Shown piece after piece: positions 52,603 through 63,321 of a stretch of DNA of 64,000 bases (positions are counted from its first letter, which is position 1; each line of letters begins with the position of its first letter). Below the pieces are notes generated by a model that made no database searches, was not told the origin of the DNA, and was given only the letters and a program-made list of their open reading frames with translations. Location: assembly GCF_003382285.1 (NCBI RefSeq), contig NZ_QTJR01000002.1:372001-436000 (forward strand). Reading direction: 5' to 3'. The translations under genes and the position numbers were made by a program. The stretch comes from Lysobacter soli (GTDB lineage Bacteria > Pseudomonadota > Gammaproteobacteria > Xanthomonadales > Xanthomonadaceae).

Positions 52603-54542
52603 ACGGCGCATCGCGCAATCCTCGAAACGCAAGCCAGCGCAGCGGCCGAAGCGGGCCGCTCGACGCCGTGCTCGCACTTCGCGACAAGTTCGGCGGTGGC
52701 AACGATCGCGTCGCCGGCAAGGGCCGCGGCCGCGCCTCGTTCAACCTGCGCAACCGGCTGCTCCTGGTGGGCGGTGCGCTCGGCCTGTGCTCGATCGCGC
52801 TGGTCGGCCGCGCGCTGGACCTGCAGGTCATCAGCAACGATTTCTACCGCCAGCAGGGCGATGCGCGCTCGCTGCGCGAGATCCCGATCCCGACCTCGCG
52901 CGGCATGATCACCGACCGCAATGGCGAGCCGCTGGCGGTGTCCACGCCGGTCGAATCGGTGTGGGCGAACCCGCAGGAACTGCTCAAGAACCCGGCGCGC
53001 ATTCCGCAGTTGGCCAAGGCGCTGGGCGTGTCGCCCGACGCGCTGACGCGCAAGCTCAGCCAGCGCGCCGGCAAGGAATTCGTTTACCTCAAGCGCCGCA
53101 TCAATCCGGACGAAGCCAAGCGCATCCTCGCCGCGAAGATCCCCGGCGTGTTCTCGCAGCGCGAATTCCGCCGCTTCTACCCGCAAGGCGAAGCGATGGC
53201 GCACATCCTGGGCTTCACCAACATCGACGACCTGGGCCAGGAAGGCCTGGAGCTCGCGTTCGACGACTGGCTTCGCGGCAAGCCGGGCGCCAAGCGCGTG
53301 ATCCGCGACGGCGCCGGCCGCATCGTCGAAAGCGTGGACCTGGTGAAGGCCGCCGAACCGGGCCGCGACCTCACACTCACCATCGATCGCCGCATCCAGT
53401 TCCTGGCGATGCGCGAACTGCGCAGCGCGCTGGAGCGCACTGGCGCCAGCAGCGGCTCGACCGTCGTGCTCGACATCGCCACCGGCGAAGTGCTCGCGAT
53501 GGCGAACCTGCCGACCTACAACCCCAATGCGCTTTCCGTCGGCAATCCGGACACGCACCGCAACCGCGCCGTGACCGACGTGATCGAGCCCGGCTCGACG
53601 ATGAAGCCGCTGACCGTCGCCTCCGCCCTGGAAGCGGGCGTCATCACGCCACACACGAAGTTCGACACGAATCCGGGCTGGATGCCGAACGGCAAGTACC
53701 GCACGACCGACCACCACAATTACGGCGTGCTCGACACGACGGGCGTGATCACCAAGAGCTCCAACGTCGGCGCGGCGAAGATCGTCGCCAAGGTGCCGAA
53801 CCAGGAGTACTACGAGTTCCTCAAGCGCTTCGGTTACGGCCACAAGACCAACAGCGGCTTCCCGGGCGAGTCGTCGGGCGTGCTCGCGCCGCCATCGCGC
53901 TGGAGCGGCACGACCAAGCAGACGATGTCGTACGGCTACGGCCTGTCGGCCACGCCGCTGCAGATCGCGCAGGCGTACGCAGCGCTGGGCAACGGCGGAA
54001 AGCTGATCGCGCCGACGTTCGTGAAGGGCGAGCGCCACGAGCCGGTACAGGTGCTCGATCCGGCCATCGCCGGAACGATCATGCGCATGATGCAGACCGT
54101 GACCGAGCCCGGCGGCACCGCCACGCAGGCGGCGATCCTGGGTTACCACGTCGCCGGCAAGACCGGCACGGCGCGCAAGTTCAACGAGTTCGGCGGCTAC
54201 TCGCGCCGCTACGTGTCGTTCTTCGCCGGCGTCGTGCCGGTGAACAACCCGCGCTTCTCGATGGTGGTGGTGATCAACGATCCGGATCCGGCGAAGGGCT
54301 ACTTCGGCGGTTTCGTTTCCGGCCCGGTATTCAAGAGCGTGATGGAAGGCTCGCTGCGCCTGATGGACGTCGCGCCGGACGACATCGACACCTGGATGGC
54401 CGCGCAGGCCGCCGCCGAAGCCAAGCGTGCGAAGGCCAACGGCGGCAAGCCGACCGGCACCGTGCTGCCGGCACCGACGCATGCCTCGGCCGCGCTGCCC
54501 GCGCCGGTCGGGCTGGTGACGCCGCCTGGAGGTGCGCGATGA
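52599..54542 (+). CDS. ftsI: Peptidoglycan D,D-transpeptidase FtsI (PBP3)
   Basis: Septal class B penicillin-binding protein. 647 residues from ATG 52599. Cytoplasmic Arg-rich N-terminus, membrane helix [20 protein letters not shown] (about 49-68), pedestal domain ([25 protein letters not shown]), and transpeptidase domain with the three active-site motifs: STMK (Ser333), SSN (387-389) and KTGT (521-524). An Ala/Pro-rich tail of about 50 residues follows. Four-base overlaps on both sides keep it coupled to ftsL and murE. Confidence 0.96.
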
Positions 54543-56011
54543 GCCGCCTCATGCCGCTGGCCGAACTGCTGCCGGACGTCGCCGGCATTCCGCCGGAACT
54601 GACGATCACCGGCCTGGTGCTCGACAGCCGCGCCGTGCGTCCGGGCAACGCGTTCGTCGCGATCGCCGGCTTCGGTGCGCACGGGCTGCGCTTCGTCGAC
54701 CAGGCGCGTGCGGCCGGCGCCGCGGCCATCCTTTTCGAGCCGCCCGCGCCCGATGACCTTCCCGCGCCGCACGACGCGATCGCCGTGCCGGGCCTGCGTT
54801 CGCGCCTGGGCGAAATGGGCGATCGCTTCCACGGTCGCGCCACCGAGGCGATGACCGTCGTCGGCGTCACCGGAACCAACGGCAAGACCTCGACCGTGCA
54901 GCTGCTCACGCAGGCGTGGCACGCGCGCGGGATCGTCAGCGGCAGCGTCGGCACGCTCGGCGCTGGGCTTTACGGGCACGTGGTGCCGACCGGCTTCACC
55001 ACGCCACTGGTGCTGCAGACGCACGAACTGCTGGCGACGATGCACGACGACGGCGCGCAGGCCATCGCGATGGAAGCCAGCTCGCACGCGCTCGACCAGG
55101 GCCGCGTCGACGGCGTGCACTTCGACGTTGCGGTCTTCACCAACCTCACGCGCGATCACCTCGATTACCACGGCGACATGGCGACCTACGGCGCCGCGAA
55201 GGCGCGCCTGTTCGCGTGGAAGGGCCTGAAGGCCGCCGTCATCAACCTCGACGACGCGTTCGGTCGCGAGCTCATCGCCACGCTGCCGCACGACGTGCGC
55301 GCGATCGGCGTGAGTTCGCGCGGCGATGCGTCGGCCACGCTGCAGGCGCGCAACCTGCGCTTCGACAACGCAGGCATCGGTTTCGACCTGGTCGTGGACG
55401 GGCAGTCGCATGCGGTGCAGTCGCCGCTGCTCGGCCGCTTCAACGTCGACAACCTTCTCGCGGTCGCCGGCGTGCTCATCGCGCTGGGCGACGCGCCGGC
55501 GCAGGTCGCCGGAACGCTCGCGACGCTGCAGCCGATCCACGGCCGCATGAACCGTCTCGGCGGCGATGGCCGCCTGCCGCTGGTCGTCGTCGATTACGCA
55601 CACACGCCCGATGCGCTGGAGCAGGCGCTGACTTCGCTGCGCGCGCATGTCCAGGCGAAGCTGATCTGCGTGTTCGGCTGCGGCGGCGATCGCGATCGGG
55701 GCAAGCGCCCGCAGATGGCGGCGATCGCGGAACAGCACGCCGACGTTGTCATCGTGACCGACGACAACCCGCGTTTCGAGGACGGCGACGTCATCGTGGC
55801 CGACATCATGGCCGGCTTCGCGCATCCCGAGCGCGTCACCGTGCAGCGCGATCGCGCCGCGGCGATCGCGCATGCGGTGGGCAGGGCCGGTCCGAACGAC
55901 ATCGTGCTGATCGCAGGCAAGGGCCACGAGCCCTACCAGGACGTGCAGGGCGTGCAGTATCCCTTCGACGACACGCAGGTGGCGCGTTCCGCGCTGGAGG
56001 CTCGCCAGTGA
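54539..56011 (+). CDS. murE: UDP-MurNAc-L-Ala-D-Glu:meso-diaminopimelate ligase
   Basis: Adds meso-diaminopimelate as the third stem-peptide residue. 490 residues from ATG 54539. Mur ligase features: [15 protein letters not shown] (ATP-binding loop, about 110-118), [27 protein letters not shown] and [11 protein letters not shown]. The DNPR motif (409-412), which selects meso-diaminopimelate over lysine, is present, so a DAP-type peptidoglycan is expected. Overlaps ftsI and murF by four bases each. Confidence 0.96.
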
Positions 56012-57393
56012 AAGCGCGCAAGCTCTCCGACATTGCCCGCATCACCCGCGGCCGCCTCATTGGCGAGGACCGCATGGTCGACGCGATCGCCACCGACACG
56101 CGCGCGCTGCCGCACGGCGGCGCGGCGCTGTTCGTCGCACTGAAAGGCGAGCGTTTCGACGGCCACGACCACGTCGCGAAAGCCGCACAGGCGGGTGTCG
56201 CCGCCGCGCTCGTGTCGCGCGAAGTCGAGGCGCCCGTCGCCCAGATCGTCGTCGCCGACACCGAACGCGCGCTGGCCGACTTCGCCGCTGCCGTGCACCG
56301 CGAACGCATCGAGGGCAACGCGCAGAAGGTCGTCGCGATCACCGGCAGCAACGGCAAGACCAGCGTGAAGGCGCTGACGTTGGCGATCCTGGAGCGCGTC
56401 GGCAAGACCTTCGCGACGCCCGGCAACCGCAACAACGAGATCGGCCTGCCATTGGCCGTGATCGACGGGCCGGACGACGCCGTCTTCGCGATTTACGAAA
56501 TGGGCGCCGGCAAGCCGGGCGACATCGCGTACCTCACCGACATCGTGCGTCCCGACGTGTCGATCGTGAACAACATCGCGCCCGGTCACCTGGAGCGCAT
56601 GGGCAGCCTGCTCGGCGTGGCCGACACGAAGGCGGCGATCTACGACGCGCTGCCGGGTGAGGGCGTGGCGGTGATCAACGCCGACGACGCGTTCGCGCCG
56701 TACTTCGCCGAACGCGCGCACGGCCGTCGCCTGCTGCGCTTCGGCTTGGAATCAAGCGCGGACCTCACCGCGAAGAATATCGAGGCGCTGCCGGACGGCT
56801 CGCGCTTCACGCTTGTCGCGCCGCAGGGCGAGGCCGCGGTGTCGCTCGCGTTGCCGGGTCGTCACAACGTGAGCAACGCACTCGCCGCTGCGGCGCTTTC
56901 GCTCAGCGTCGGCGCGACCCTGCAGCAGTTCGCCGAAGGCCTCAACGCCGCGCGTCCCGTCGCTGGACGGCTGATCACGCATCGCCTCGCCAACGGCGCG
57001 GTGCTGATCGACGACAGCTACAACGCGAATCCGGGCTCGCTTGCCGCGGCCATCGACACGCTCGCGGCCGGTGGCGGCGAAGCGTGGCTGGTGCTGGGCG
57101 ACATGCGCGAACTGGGCGCCGATGCCGAAGCGATGCACGCCGAAGCCGGACGTCGCGCGAAGAGCGCCGGCATCCGCCGCCTGCTGACGTTGGGGCCGTA
57201 CAGCGCGGCGGCCTCGCGCACGTTCGGCGAAGGCGCGACGCACTTCGAAACGCATGACGCGCTGGCCGATGTGCTGAAGAACGAATTGCGCGAAGGCGTC
57301 CGGGTACTGGTGAAAGGCTCGCGCGGAAGCGCGATGGACAGGATCGTGGCCGCGCTCGTGGGCCCGCAAGAAGGGGACACCCATGCTGCTTGA
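56008..57393 (+). CDS. murF: UDP-MurNAc-tripeptide:D-Ala-D-Ala ligase
   Basis: Adds the D-Ala-D-Ala dipeptide to complete the UDP-MurNAc pentapeptide. 461 residues from GTG 56008. Motifs: [27 protein letters not shown] (N-terminal uridine-binding domain), [15 protein letters not shown] (ATP loop, about 113-119), [11 protein letters not shown] and [17 protein letters not shown]. Overlaps murE by four bases and mraY by 11. Confidence 0.96.
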
Positions 57394-58468
57394 ACTCACG
57401 CGTTGGCTCGAACAACTGCAGAGCCTGTTCGGCCTGTTCGGCTACCTCACCTTCCGCGGCATCCTGAGCGCGCTCACCGCGCTCGCGCTGTCGCTCTGGT
57501 GGGGCCCGGCGGTGATCCGCAAGCTTGGCCAGCTCAAGGGCGGCCAGCCGATCCGCAAGGACGGCCCGCAGTCGCACTTCTCCAAGGCCGGTACGCCGAC
57601 GATGGGCGGCGCACTGATCCTGTTCACGGTGATGGCCTCCGTGCTGCTGTGGGGCGACCTGCGCAACAAGTACGTGTGGGTCGTGCTGCTGGTGATGCTC
57701 GCCTTCGGCGCGATCGGCTGGTACGACGACTGGATCAAGATCGTCAAGCGCGATCCGAATGGCCTGAAGTCGCGCTGGAAGTACCTCGCGCAGTCGGTGT
57801 TCGGCCTCGGCGCCGGCCTCTACCTGTGGTATTTCGCCGACGTTCCGGCGGCGACGAACTTCTACGTGCCGTTCTTCAAGTCGATCGCGCTGCCGCTGGC
57901 GGGCGTGGGCTTCGTGGCGATCGCGTACTTCTGGATCGTCGGTTTCTCCAACGCGGTGAACCTCACCGACGGCCTGGACGGCCTCGCGATCATGCCGACG
58001 GTGCTGGTCGCGTGCGCGCTGGGCATCTTCGCGTACGCGTCGGGCCACGCGGAATTCTCGAAGTACCTGCAGATTCCCGCCGTACCCGGAGCGGGTGAGC
58101 TGGTGATCATCTGCGCGGCGATCGCCGGCGCGGGCCTGGGCTTTCTGTGGTTCAACACCTATCCGGCGATGGTGTTCATGGGCGACATCGGTGCGCTCGC
58201 GCTCGGCGCCGTGCTCGGCACCATCGCGGTGATCGTGCGCCAGGAACTGGTGCTGGTGATCATGGGCGGCATCTTCGTCATCGAAACGCTCTCGGTGATG
58301 ATCCAGGTCGCCTCGTTCAAGCTCACCGGCAAGCGCGTGTTCCGCATGGCCCCGATCCACCATCACTTCGAGCTGAAGGGCTGGCCGGAGCCGCGCGTGA
58401 TCGTGCGCTTCTGGATCATCTCCGTCGTACTCGTCCTCGTCGGCCTGGCCACGCTGAAGGTACGTTGA
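57383..58468 (+). CDS. mraY: Phospho-MurNAc-pentapeptide transferase
   Basis: Integral membrane enzyme that makes lipid I by transferring phospho-MurNAc-pentapeptide to undecaprenyl phosphate. 361 residues, about ten helices. Motifs: [20 protein letters not shown], the catalytic [29 protein letters not shown] and the HHHFE-type [12 protein letters not shown]. Its TGA shares one base with the ftsW ATG (TGATG). murD, which normally follows, is absent. Confidence 0.97.
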
Positions 58469-59796
58469 TGAGCGACTCCGCGCGCCAGGCAACACGACTC
58501 GACGCGATCGGCGGCCACTTCGACCCGTGGCTGCTCGGGATCTCGTGCGCGCTCGCGTGCCTGGGCGTGGTGATGGTCGGCTCGGCGTCGATCGGCGTCG
58601 CGGACGGCCACGACGTCGGCCCGTTCTACTTCCTCACACGTCACGTCGTGTTCCTCGCCATCGGCCTGGTCGGCGCGGTGTGGGTCATGCGGACGGAACT
58701 GAAGACCATCGAGCAGCACAACCAGTGGCTGCTGCTGGTGTGCTTCGTGCTGCTGATCGCGGTATTCGTGCCCGGCATCGGCCGCAGCGTCAATGGCGCG
58801 CGCCGCTGGCTGAACCTCGGGTTCTCGAATTTCCAGGCCGTCGAAGCGGTCAAGCTGCTCTACATCGTCTGGCTCGCCAGCTACCTCAAGCGCTACAGCG
58901 AGGAAGTGACGGCGACCTGGGGCGCGATGCTCAAGCCGATCGGCGTCGCCGTCGCGCTGGTGATGATGCTGCTGTTGCAGCCGGACTTCGGTTCGTCCTC
59001 GCTGCTGCTGGCGATCACCGCCGGCATGCTCGTGCTCGGCGGCGTGAACATGCCGCGCATGTTCGGCCCGGTGCTGATCGGCCTGCCCGTGCTGGCGGTG
59101 GTGGCGATCGCAGAGCCCTACCGCGTCGTGCGCCTGACCTCGTTCCTCGACCCGTGGCAGGACCCGTTCAAGACCGGTTACCAGCTGACCAACGCGCTGA
59201 TGGCCGTGGGTCGCGGCGAATGGCTCGGGGTCGGGCTCGGTGCATCTGTGCAGAAGCTCTCGTACCTGCCCGAGGCGCACACCGACTTCATCATGGCGGT
59301 GATCGCGGAGGAGTTCGGATTCCTCGGCGTGTGCCTCGTCGTCGGCCTGTACGCGGGCCTTGCCGGTCGCGCCTTCTGGCTCGGCTTGAAGTGCGTGGAG
59401 ATGCGCCGCCACTTCGCGGGGTATTGCGCGTTCGGCATCGCGCTGTGGATGAGCCTGCAGAGCTTCGTCTCGATCGGCGTGAACCTCGGTTTGCTGCCCA
59501 CGAAGGGCCTGACGCTGCCGATGATTTCCTACGGCGGTTCCAGCGTGATCATGACCTGCGCCGCGCTCGGCCTGCTGCTGCGCGTGTCGTACGAACTCGA
59601 TCGCGCGCAGCGCCAGGTGGCGCGCGTGCGCAACGAGACCGCGCCGCCGTCGGCCGCGAACGATCCGGGCGCGCCGTCGCCGACCGCCGCGCCGATGCCG
59701 TCGCGCAAGCCCGCGCCGGTTGCGTCGGCGATGACGTCGCGCGGCACCAGCCGCCTGCAGCAGCGCGTCGAGCCGACGCTGGGGAGGATCGCGTGA
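58468..59796 (+). CDS. ftsW: Peptidoglycan glycosyltransferase FtsW
   Basis: SEDS-family septal glycan polymerase working with FtsI. 442 residues from ATG 58468, with about ten helices. Motifs: [45 protein letters not shown] (the essential Asp of the SEDS family), [31 protein letters not shown] and [17 protein letters not shown]. The cytoplasmic C-terminus is an Ala/Pro-rich tail of about 60 residues. Coupled to mraY and murG. Confidence 0.96.
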
Positions 59797-60887
59797 TGCA
59801 CGCCGCGACCGATTCCGACCTGCATCCGGTGATGATCCTCGCCGGCGGCACCGGCGGGCATATCTTCCCGGGCCTGGCCGTGGCCAAGGCGCTGAACGGG
59901 CGCAACGTCCCGGTGCTGTGGCTCGGCGCGGAAGGCGGCATGGAGACGCGCCTGGTCCCGCAGCACGGCATCGCCATCGACACCATTGCCGTGCGCGGCA
60001 TGCGCGGCAAGGGCGTCGCGACGCTGCTGGCCACGCCGTTCCGCCTCATCGGCGCCGTGCGCGCCGCGATGCAGACGCTTCGCGAGCGCCAGCCGCGCGC
60101 GGTGATCAGCTTCGGCGGTTATGCGGCCGGCCCGGGCGGTCTGGCGGCGAAGCTCGCCGGCATTCCGCTGATCGTGCACGAACAGAACCGCGCGCCGGGC
60201 CTGACCAACCGCGTGCTCGCGCGTTTCGCGCGCCACGTGCTGACGGGCTTTCCGGACACGTTCCCGAACGAGGAAGTCGTCGGCAATCCCGTACGCGCCG
60301 AGATCGCCGCGGCCGCGCCGCCGGCGCAGCGTTTCGCCGGACGCACCGGCGCGCTGCGCGTACTCGTGCTCGGCGGCAGCCAGGGCGCGCGTGCGTTGAA
60401 CACCGCGGTGCCGAAGGCCGTCGCCGGCCTGCGTGGCCGCATCCAGTGCGAAGTGCGCCACCAGTGCGGCGAGAAGCTGCGCGAGGAAGCCGAGCGCGCG
60501 TACGCCGAAGCAGGTGTGCAGGCGTCGGTGGAACCCTTCATCGCCGACATGGCGTCCGCCTACGCGTGGGCCGACATCGTCGTATGCCGCGCCGGTGCGC
60601 TGACGCTCGCGGAGCTGTGCGCGGTCGGAGTGGGCAGCGTGCTGGTGCCGTTCCCGCAGGCGGTGGACGACCACCAGACCAAGAACGCGCAATACCTCGT
60701 CGACCGCGGCGCCGCACACCTCGTGCCGCAGGGCACGGCGGGCGACCTGGCGCAGCGGCTGTCGGCCACCCTCGAAATCCTCGGCGAGCGCGGCGCCCTG
60801 CTGCAGATGGCGCAGGCGGCGCGCGCGATCGCCAAACCCGACGCAGCCGAACGCGTCGCACAACTGGTTCTGGAGCAAGTCGAATGA
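59796..60887 (+). CDS. murG: UDP-GlcNAc:lipid I GlcNAc transferase MurG
   Basis: GT-B glycosyltransferase that makes lipid II at the cytoplasmic face of the membrane. 363 residues from ATG 59796, sharing one base with the ftsW stop; a GTG three bases earlier is possible. Motifs: [65 protein letters not shown] and [35 protein letters not shown]. Ends overlapping murC. Confidence 0.96.
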
Positions 60888-62338
60888 GTACGGCCCTGCG
60901 TCGCCGCCTGCAGCACACCGGCGACCTCGCCAAAGCCTTCCCGCGCGTCCACTTCGTGGGCGTCGGCGGCGTGGGCATGAGCGGCCTGGCCGAAGTGATG
61001 TGCACGCTCGGTTACCAGGTGTCGGGTTCGGACAACGCCGACAATGCGGTGACGCGCCGTCTCGCCTCGCTGGGCGTCACCGTGAACAAGGGCCACGCTG
61101 CCGCGAACGTGCTCGGCACCGATTGCGTCGTGGTGTCGAGTGCGATCAAGCCCGACAACCCGGAGCTGATGGAAGCGCGCGCGCAGCGCATCCCGGTCGT
61201 GCCGCGCGCGGAAATGCTTGCCGAGCTGATGCGCTTCAAGCGCGGCATCGCGGTGGCGGGCACGCACGGCAAGACCACGACGACATCGCTCGCGGCCAGC
61301 GTGCTCGCCGAAGGCGGCATCGATCCCACGTTCGTGATCGGCGGCCAGCTGCTCGCAGCCGGCGCGAACGCGCGCCTGGGCACGGGCGAATGGCTCGTGG
61401 CCGAAGCCGACGAAAGCGACGGCAGCTTCCTGCGCCTGAATCCGCAGATCGCCATCGTCACCAACATCGACGCCGATCACCTGGAGAACTACGGCGGCGA
61501 TTTCGCCCGCGTGCAGGCGGCGTTCGAGGAATTCATGCATCGCCTGCCGTTCTACGGGCTGGCGGTGCTGTGCATCGACGATGCGGAAGTCGCCGCGCTC
61601 GCGAAGAGAACGCCACGCCACGTGATGACGTACGGCTTCAGCATCGAAGCCGACGTGCGCGCCGAGGACGTGCAGCAGGACGGCCCGAACATGCGCTTCA
61701 CGCTGTGCCTGCCCGATGCGACACGCACGCCGATCACGCTCGCGCTGCCGGGCCGCCACAACGTGCTCAACGCGCTGGCCGCCGCTTCGGTCGCGTGGCA
61801 GCTGGGCGTCGCGGCCGATGCGATCGCCCGCGCGTTGCAGAACTTCGCCGGTGTCGGTCGCCGCTTCAACCTGCTTGCGAGCCCGACCACGTCGAAGGGC
61901 GCGACGGTGCAGCTGGTCGACGACTACGGCCATCACCCCAAGGAACTGGACGCGGTGTTCGCCGCTGCACGCGGTGGCTGGCCGGACAAGCGGCTGGTCG
62001 TCGCGTTCCAGCCGCATCGCTACAGCCGCACGCGCGATCTGTTCGACGAGTTCGCCGCGGTGCTGTCGACGGTCGACGTGCTCGTGCTGACCGAGGTGTA
62101 TCCGGCCGGCGAAGCGCCGATCGCCGGTGCGGACGCGAAGTCGCTGGCGCGCGCGATCCGCGCGCGCGGCCGCATCGATCCCGTGGTCGTCAGCGGCGCG
62201 GCCGATCTGTCGAGCGTGCTGCCCGACGTCCTCAACGACGGCGACCTGCTGCTGATGATGGGCGCGGGCGACATCGGCTACGCCGCGCAGCAGATCGCTG
62301 CGAACGGCTTCAACGCATCCAACGGAGAGAAGAAGTGA
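60884..62338 (+). CDS. murC: UDP-N-acetylmuramate:L-alanine ligase
   Basis: First Mur ligase; adds L-Ala to UDP-MurNAc. 484 residues from ATG 60884. Motifs: [17 protein letters not shown] (UDP-sugar binding), [15 protein letters not shown] (ATP loop, 126-131), [22 protein letters not shown] and [14 protein letters not shown] with [16 protein letters not shown]. Overlaps murG and ddlB by four bases each. Confidence 0.96.
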
Positions 62339-63321
62339 GCGCGCAGTCCGCAGCGGCGAAACTCGGTCCGACCCGCATCACCGATCCGGCCGCGTTCGGT
62401 CGCGTCGCCGTGCTGATGGGCGGCACCAGCGCCGAACGCGAGGTCTCGCTGGACTCGGGCCGCAACGTGCTCGACGCGCTGCGCTCGCGCGGCGTCGATG
62501 CGTTCGCGGTCGATGGCATCCCGGCACTGATCGACGCGATCCGCGCCGGCAGCGTCGATCGCGTCTTCAACATCCTCCACGGCAACAAGGGCGGAGGCGA
62601 AGACGGCGTGCTGCAGGGCCTGTGCGAAGCGCTTGGCGTTCCGTACACCGGTTCGGACGTGCTGGGTTCGGCGCTCACGATGGACAAGATCCGCACCAAG
62701 CAGGTGTGGCTCAGCATTGGCCTGCCGACGCCGCGCTACGTGCGCCTGGCGAAGGGTGGTGACGTGCACGCCGCCGCGCGCGAACTGGGCCTGCCGGTGT
62801 TCATCAAGCCGTCGAGCGAAGGCTCCAGTGTCGGCGTGTCGCGCGTGCTGAGCGATGCCGATCTCGATGCCGCCGTCGAACTCGCCGCGAACTATCCCGG
62901 CGAGATGCTGATGGAGCAGCTGATCGTCGGCGAGGAACTCACCGTGCCGGTGCTCAACGACATCGCGCTGCCGTCGATCCGCATCGTCCCGAAGGGCGAG
63001 TGGTACGACTACCACGCCAAGTACATTTCCGACGACACGCAGTACCTGTGCCCCGGCCTGGAAGGCGCGGCGGAAGCGGAGATCGGCCGCATCGCGGCGG
63101 AGGCGTTCGTCGCCGCCGGTTGTCGCGGCTGGGGTCGCGTGGACTTCATGCGCGATCGCGCGACCGGCCAGCTGTATCTGCTCGAAGTGAACACCGCGCC
63201 GGGCATGACCAGCCATTCGCTGGTGCCCAAGGCCGCGCGCCAGATCGGCATCGGATTCGATGAACTGTGCTGGCGCGTGCTCGAGTCGAGCCTGGCGAAC
63301 GCGGGAGGTGCGGCGGCGTGA
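62335..63321 (+). CDS. ddlB: D-alanine:D-alanine ligase, DdlB type
   Basis: ATP-grasp ligase making D-Ala-D-Ala for MurF. 328 residues from GTG 62335, preceded by GGAG. Motifs: [41 protein letters not shown] (the usual HGxxGEDG read with an inserted residue pattern), [30 protein letters not shown] and [21 protein letters not shown]. The N-terminus is about 20 residues longer than in E. coli DdlB. Coupled to murC and ftsQ. Confidence 0.95.

Follow-up and report, generated by a model that had tools for sequence, protein, structure and literature searches.

The mraY-ftsW junction of Lysobacter soli

The dcw cluster of Lysobacter soli raises the question of where this organism encodes its MurD ligase and which enantiomer of glutamate that ligase would use. 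In Escherichia coli K-12, murD sits between mraY and ftsW, whereas in the 64,000-nucleotide stretch of contig NZ_QTJR01000002.1 analysed here (the window) mraY (361 aa; 57383..58468, plus strand; NCBIfam TIGR00445, 444.1 bits, cut-off 192.05) is directly followed by ftsW (442 aa; 58468..59796, plus strand; NCBIfam TIGR02614, 419.3 bits, cut-off 337.5). The mraY stop codon TGA (58466-58468) and the ftsW start codon ATG (58468-58470) have one base in common, giving TGATG (58466..58470, plus strand) at the site that murD occupies in the E. coli gene order. A preliminary description of this DNA had reported shared bases and no room for murD at this junction, which is exact in the sequence, and both flanking genes are confirmed by their families.

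The remainder of the cluster, all on the plus strand, has the usual order according to NCBIfam profile matches. Upstream are murE (54557..56011; TIGR01085, 500.2 bits; open reading frame 52787-56011, with the family match starting near 54557) and murF (56092..57393; TIGR01143, 447.3 bits; open reading frame 54916-57393, match from near 56092), and downstream are murG (59796..60887; TIGR01133, 355.1 bits), whose predicted ATG start overlaps the ftsW stop, murC (60947..62338; TIGR01082, 545.7 bits; open reading frame 59918-62338, match from near 60947) and the D-Ala-D-Ala ligase gene ddl (62386..63321; NF002378, 387.1 bits; open reading frame 61000-63321, match from near 62386). The other ligases murE, murF and murC are therefore present, as had been described, and it is only within these three genes that the murD model finds matches in the window, all below 100 bits, leaving no murD there.

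A mistake in assembly or reading at 58466-58470 could in principle produce such a gap, but nothing was found in its favour, and it is most improbable given that mraY and ftsW are both intact and that 28 of 29 further genomes from the order show the same junction. These come from 30 chosen relatives in which mraY was sought, yielding 29 usable loci (G029 was not usable and G016 is partial); in 28 of them the ftsW start is no more than approximately 115 nt away from the mraY end, and murD occupies the position between the two genes in a single one (G018). Since ftsW lies directly behind mraY in 28 of the 29 usable loci of relatives, the junction is not due to chance.

A murL-murD2 pair elsewhere in the genome

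A profile search of the whole genome (3.95 Mb, 99.99% complete) recovered a sole gene over the murD cut-off, on contig C24 (161516-162844, minus strand; TIGR01087, about 301.4-301.6 bits), and no second MurD over the family cut-off. The earlier statement that murD is missing thus holds for the dcw cluster and fails for the genome. Directly before this ligase gene lies murL, encoding a protein of 453 aa that scores 829.7 bits against NF041275, the MurL model of Xanthomonadales (cut-off 700), and whose end is overlapped by the reading frame of the ligase. A gene for a fused aspartokinase/diaminopimelate decarboxylase (NF006515, 1352.3 bits) precedes murL with overlapping stop and start codons, giving the gene row lysC-lysA, murL, murD2. 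An adjacent murL-murD2 pair, for which the preliminary description had proposed a search, is thus present. A comparison of MurL with solved structures returned no convincing relative, the single match having an E value of 0.65.

The MurD2-MurL pathway has been described in Xanthomonas oryzae (XOO_1320 and XOO_1319; PMC8788868, citing Feng et al. 2017). According to that review, MurD2 has Glu197 and Arg358 where E. coli MurD has Asp182 and Lys348, and the two MurD2 residues are said to set the specificity for L-Glu; reversion of either residue alters stereospecificity, as the laboratory change R358K does, and reversion of both brings about a full switch (PMC8788868). The same review lists the pair in Lysobacter, Xanthomonas, Stenotrophomonas, Xylella, Dyella, Frateuria, Rhodanobacter and Pseudoxanthomonas, and also in some Alphaproteobacteria and rare actinobacteria (PMC8788868), and PMC5808125 reports further orthologues, of low similarity, from cyanobacteria, a fungus and an amoeba.

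The C24 ligase contains both Glu197 and Arg358, in the motifs FPEH and GGHDRG, which align to E. coli Asp182 and Lys348, respectively; in the test for a canonical MurD (Asp182 and Lys348 in the E. coli numbering of the review), it has Glu and Arg instead. Position names follow the review and are shifted by one residue relative to the E. coli record, the offset having been picked to make the named residues match.

The usual suppliers of D-Glu do not reach their cut-offs in this genome. The glutamate racemase model gave one genome-wide match, at 23.9 bits against a cut-off of 146.65, and the search for murI that had been proposed therefore found no MurI over the cut-off. The matching protein is a member of the aspartate/glutamate racemase family (TIGR00035, 230.2 bits, over the cut-off of that model) and scores 326.4 bits against PRK10200, under the cut-off of 417; we take it to be of the YgeA type. 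D-amino-acid transaminase was likewise absent above its cut-off in the genome-wide model search, the best match (126 bits against 277.45) being IlvE (392.6 bits).

A very probable MurD2-MurL route in the window genome

It is very probable that the genome of the window uses the published MurD2-MurL pathway, judging by gene content, gene order, residues and distribution. By analogy with published work on homologues, the ligase encoded by murD2 would add L-glutamate, and MurL, an epimerase encoded just before it that uses ATP with AMP as product, would convert the terminal L-Glu to D-Glu, in which case free D-Glu and a racemase would not be needed. The preliminary description had read the absence of murD from the dcw cluster as a reflection of this pathway, a reading that holds and is supported by the MurL match, the presence of Glu197 and Arg358, and the lack of MurI or transaminase matches over their cut-offs. 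Its argument that this absence is what the pathway predicts is somewhat weak in its logic, as a gap in the dcw cluster does not by itself predict MurL. Because a ligase can move without changing its substrate, the case rests on MurL, on the ligase residues and on the lack of a racemase over the cut-off.

A relocation of this kind is the main competing explanation: murD would merely have moved and still add D-Glu, supplied by the YgeA-type racemase, with MurL doing some other job. Genes can indeed relocate without functional change, the presence of the racemase-family protein makes some free D-Glu from another source possible, and the score of the ligase is over the cut-off of the canonical murD model, although this model cannot separate MurD from MurD2. 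Such a scenario is nevertheless very unlikely, as MurL exceeds a curated cut-off and is encoded directly before the ligase, the ligase contains the residues associated with L-Glu, fused MurL-MurD2 proteins exist, and Lys at the key position never occurs together with MurL, neither in the ligases examined in the order (0 of 78) nor in the wider set described below (0 of 59 readable loci, among the best 80 of 113).

The MurD2-MurL pathway is already known, and the genome of the window is a plain member of the group that has it, the system being usual in the order. It resembles that of X. oryzae in the adjacency of murL and murD2, the lack of a glutamate racemase over the cut-off and the presence of Glu197 and Arg358 in the ligase, and, as far as it is known here from genes, shows no difference of substance. 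The available part of PMC8788868 makes no mention of the lysC-lysA, murL, murD2 row or of the dcw junction. The genome of the window differs from the canonical MurD and MurI system of E. coli, in which murD lies between mraY and ftsW, MurD has Asp182 and Lys348, and D-Glu comes from MurI.

Distribution across the order

Among 121 genomes of the order (the genome of the window and 120 relatives that are at least 90% complete), 117 have MurL, 119 have a murD over its cut-off and three have a MurI over its own. The window thus confirms, for an essential pathway, a variant that is already known and is near universal in this sample, and the suggestion that the whole lineage uses it is largely upheld, with the exception of four genomes that lack MurL (G018, G110, G041 and G083). 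This distribution suggests that the murD of the dcw cluster would have been lost early in the order, leaving mraY and ftsW touching.

Ligase residues were read in 80 of the 119 genomes with murD over the cut-off, and in 71 of these 80 the stretch examined also encodes MurL. All 78 examined ligases of MurL genomes have Arg at the position of E. coli Lys348 and Ile, Leu or Met at that of Lys319. The position of Asp182 is occupied by Glu in 73 of the 78 and by Asp in five (G015, G026, G033, G088 and G105); Glu197 is not strict in MurL genomes.

Gene arrangement also varies within the order. MurL and the ligase are encoded on different contigs in the five genomes of family f10 (G010, G020, G029, G037 and G044), where the ligase stretches examined show no mraY, and on different contigs, near contig ends, in G006 and G047. 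A possible selenocysteine at an in-frame TGA in MurL of G010, G020 and G100 was rejected, as this TGA is at the C-terminal end, the position of an ordinary stop. One MurL genome, G117, also encodes MurI (209 bits; L115, 7618-8445) and has a ligase with Arg358, which shows that MurI can be present without loss of MurL.

The exceptions differ from one another. G018 (L024 and L116) encodes murD in its dcw cluster, also encodes a MurI, has no MurL, and its ligase has the canonical residues Asp, Lys and Lys. Its MraY is 49% identical to that of the window, compared with 58 to 90% for the 28 remaining loci that were usable; this genome may be misplaced in the order and is counted here as an exception from which no conclusion is drawn. 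G041 and G083, both of family f7, have neither MurL nor murD over the cut-offs, and ftsW lies directly behind mraY in both. They are fragmented metagenome-assembled genomes (MAGs) of about 110 and 290 contigs, each 96% complete, and since MurL and MurD2 are usually neighbours, one gap in such an assembly could remove both genes; another route could also account for the pattern. Six genomes of family f7 contain matches to the MurI model below its cut-off (the top match of each genome scoring about 47 to 69 bits) that cover most of the model and are excluded from the MurI count. In this family, L044, L046 and L048 encode a divergent protein related to glutamate racemase that stays below the MurI cut-off; in L044 and L046 its gene is preceded by a putative zinc carboxypeptidase gene, identified by eye.

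A possible reversal in OFTM154

The fourth exception, the MAG OFTM154 (G110), lacks murL, encodes MurI and has Lys in place of Arg358 (L025, 8333-12412; L114, 8972-9787). Its ligase, 100% identical to that of L117 (contig JAJFKX010000012.1), is encoded on a 282-kb contig immediately after the lysC-lysA fusion, with no murL between them. MurI (220 bits) is encoded on a 492-kb contig, and the base composition of the MurI and ligase contigs is alike, at 49.3% against 49.7%. The ligase residues are Glu, Lys and Ile, with Glu197 retained, Lys at position 358 and the MurD2-type Ile at the position of Lys319; OFTM154 alone has Lys at position 358 among the 79 MurD2-type ligases examined.

The sole genus mate in the sample, OFTM396 (G019; L118), has lysC-lysA, murL and murD2 in a row, retains Arg and has no MurI match in its genome. 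In the tree its ligase is sister to that of OFTM154 (61% identity; support 0.994), and the ligase of G070, a MurL genome with Arg, joins this pair with a support of 0.984. This tree, rerooted on E. coli, has weak or unclear support at its deep nodes, so only this sister pair and the joining of G070 were used.

The simplest reading is that a transition in this one lineage likely involved the loss of murL, the presence of MurI and the replacement of Arg358 by Lys, returning it to the racemase route. With Glu197 unchanged, the published double switch is only half present in OFTM154. The case comes from one MAG that is 98% complete with 3% contamination, in which a misplaced contig, or a MurL encoded in the missing part, is possible. 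The sister pair of OFTM154 and OFTM396 lets one ask whether the stereospecificity of the ligase has switched back in nature. Lys at position 358 and MurL never occur together in the genomes examined, and this residue may therefore mark the glutamate used by the ligase.

MurL and MurD2 beyond the order

In the class, MurL was found in eight of 281 sampled genomes, four from the family of the window (its own genome included) and four from two other families. A wider scan covered named genomes, using two peptide patterns from the ligases of OFTM154 and OFTM396, and was read for the best 80 of 113 loci; it is biased both by the origin of the patterns and by this selection of loci. Within these 80 loci, MurL adjoins the ligase in 56. 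A search of the genomes behind 44 of the 80 recovered MurL in all 20 of the loci where it adjoins the ligase and in four of the 24 where it does not, giving 60 of the best 80 loci with MurL in total. The absences rest on the Xanthomonadales model.

The key position is Arg in 59 of the 60 loci with MurL and unreadable in one (L159), and the 20 without MurL comprise 15 with Lys (OFTM154 included) and five with Arg (again among the best 80 of 113). The associated Fisher value of 2.4e-10 ignores relatedness and is not read as a probability. The five loci that have Arg although their genomes yielded no MurL (L160, L163, L184, L186 and L196) are among 64 Arg-bearing loci, and the MurD of Streptococcus mutans also has Arg at position 348 according to PMC8788868; Arg at this position is no proof of MurD2. 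The residue may still help annotators, who call both enzymes murD, as Lys348 speaks against the alternative route.

Named taxa among the MurL-bearing loci (L120 to L195, within the best 80 of 113) include Bacteroidales, Clostridia, Erysipelotrichales, Bacilli and Omnitrophota, together with Peribacteria, Peregrinibacteria, Roizmanbacteria, Falkowbacteria, Pacebacteria, Staskawiczbacteria and Saccharibacteria. MurL-MurD2, which also occurs in many bacteria of candidate phyla, is thus spread more widely than the list in the available part of PMC8788868, and a description of this wide spread was not found in listings of open PubMed Central papers. In the two Saccharibacteria loci L172 and L195, murL follows the ligase gene.

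On balance, we slightly favour a broader reading in which the route is reversible in nature, as in OFTM154, position 358 may mark the choice of glutamate, and MurL-MurD2 is widespread and has been fused several times. What deserves follow-up is the possible reversal, together with the broad distribution and the fused proteins; these by-products matter more than the window itself.

Fusion of MurL and the ligase into one open frame occurs in four of 80 genomes of the order, three of one genus (G008, G027 and G099) and one of another family (G053), and in seven of the best 80 of 113 wider loci. The one-frame loci are L092 (342-2918), L093 (1446-4016), L105 (319-2874) and L076 (302-3055), with L126, L129, L134, L143, L145, L166 and L178 from several other phyla. 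In the three of these 11 fusions that were searched for families (G008, G053 and L126), MurL forms the first half and MurD the second, and such fusion supports sequential work of the two enzymes on one substrate.
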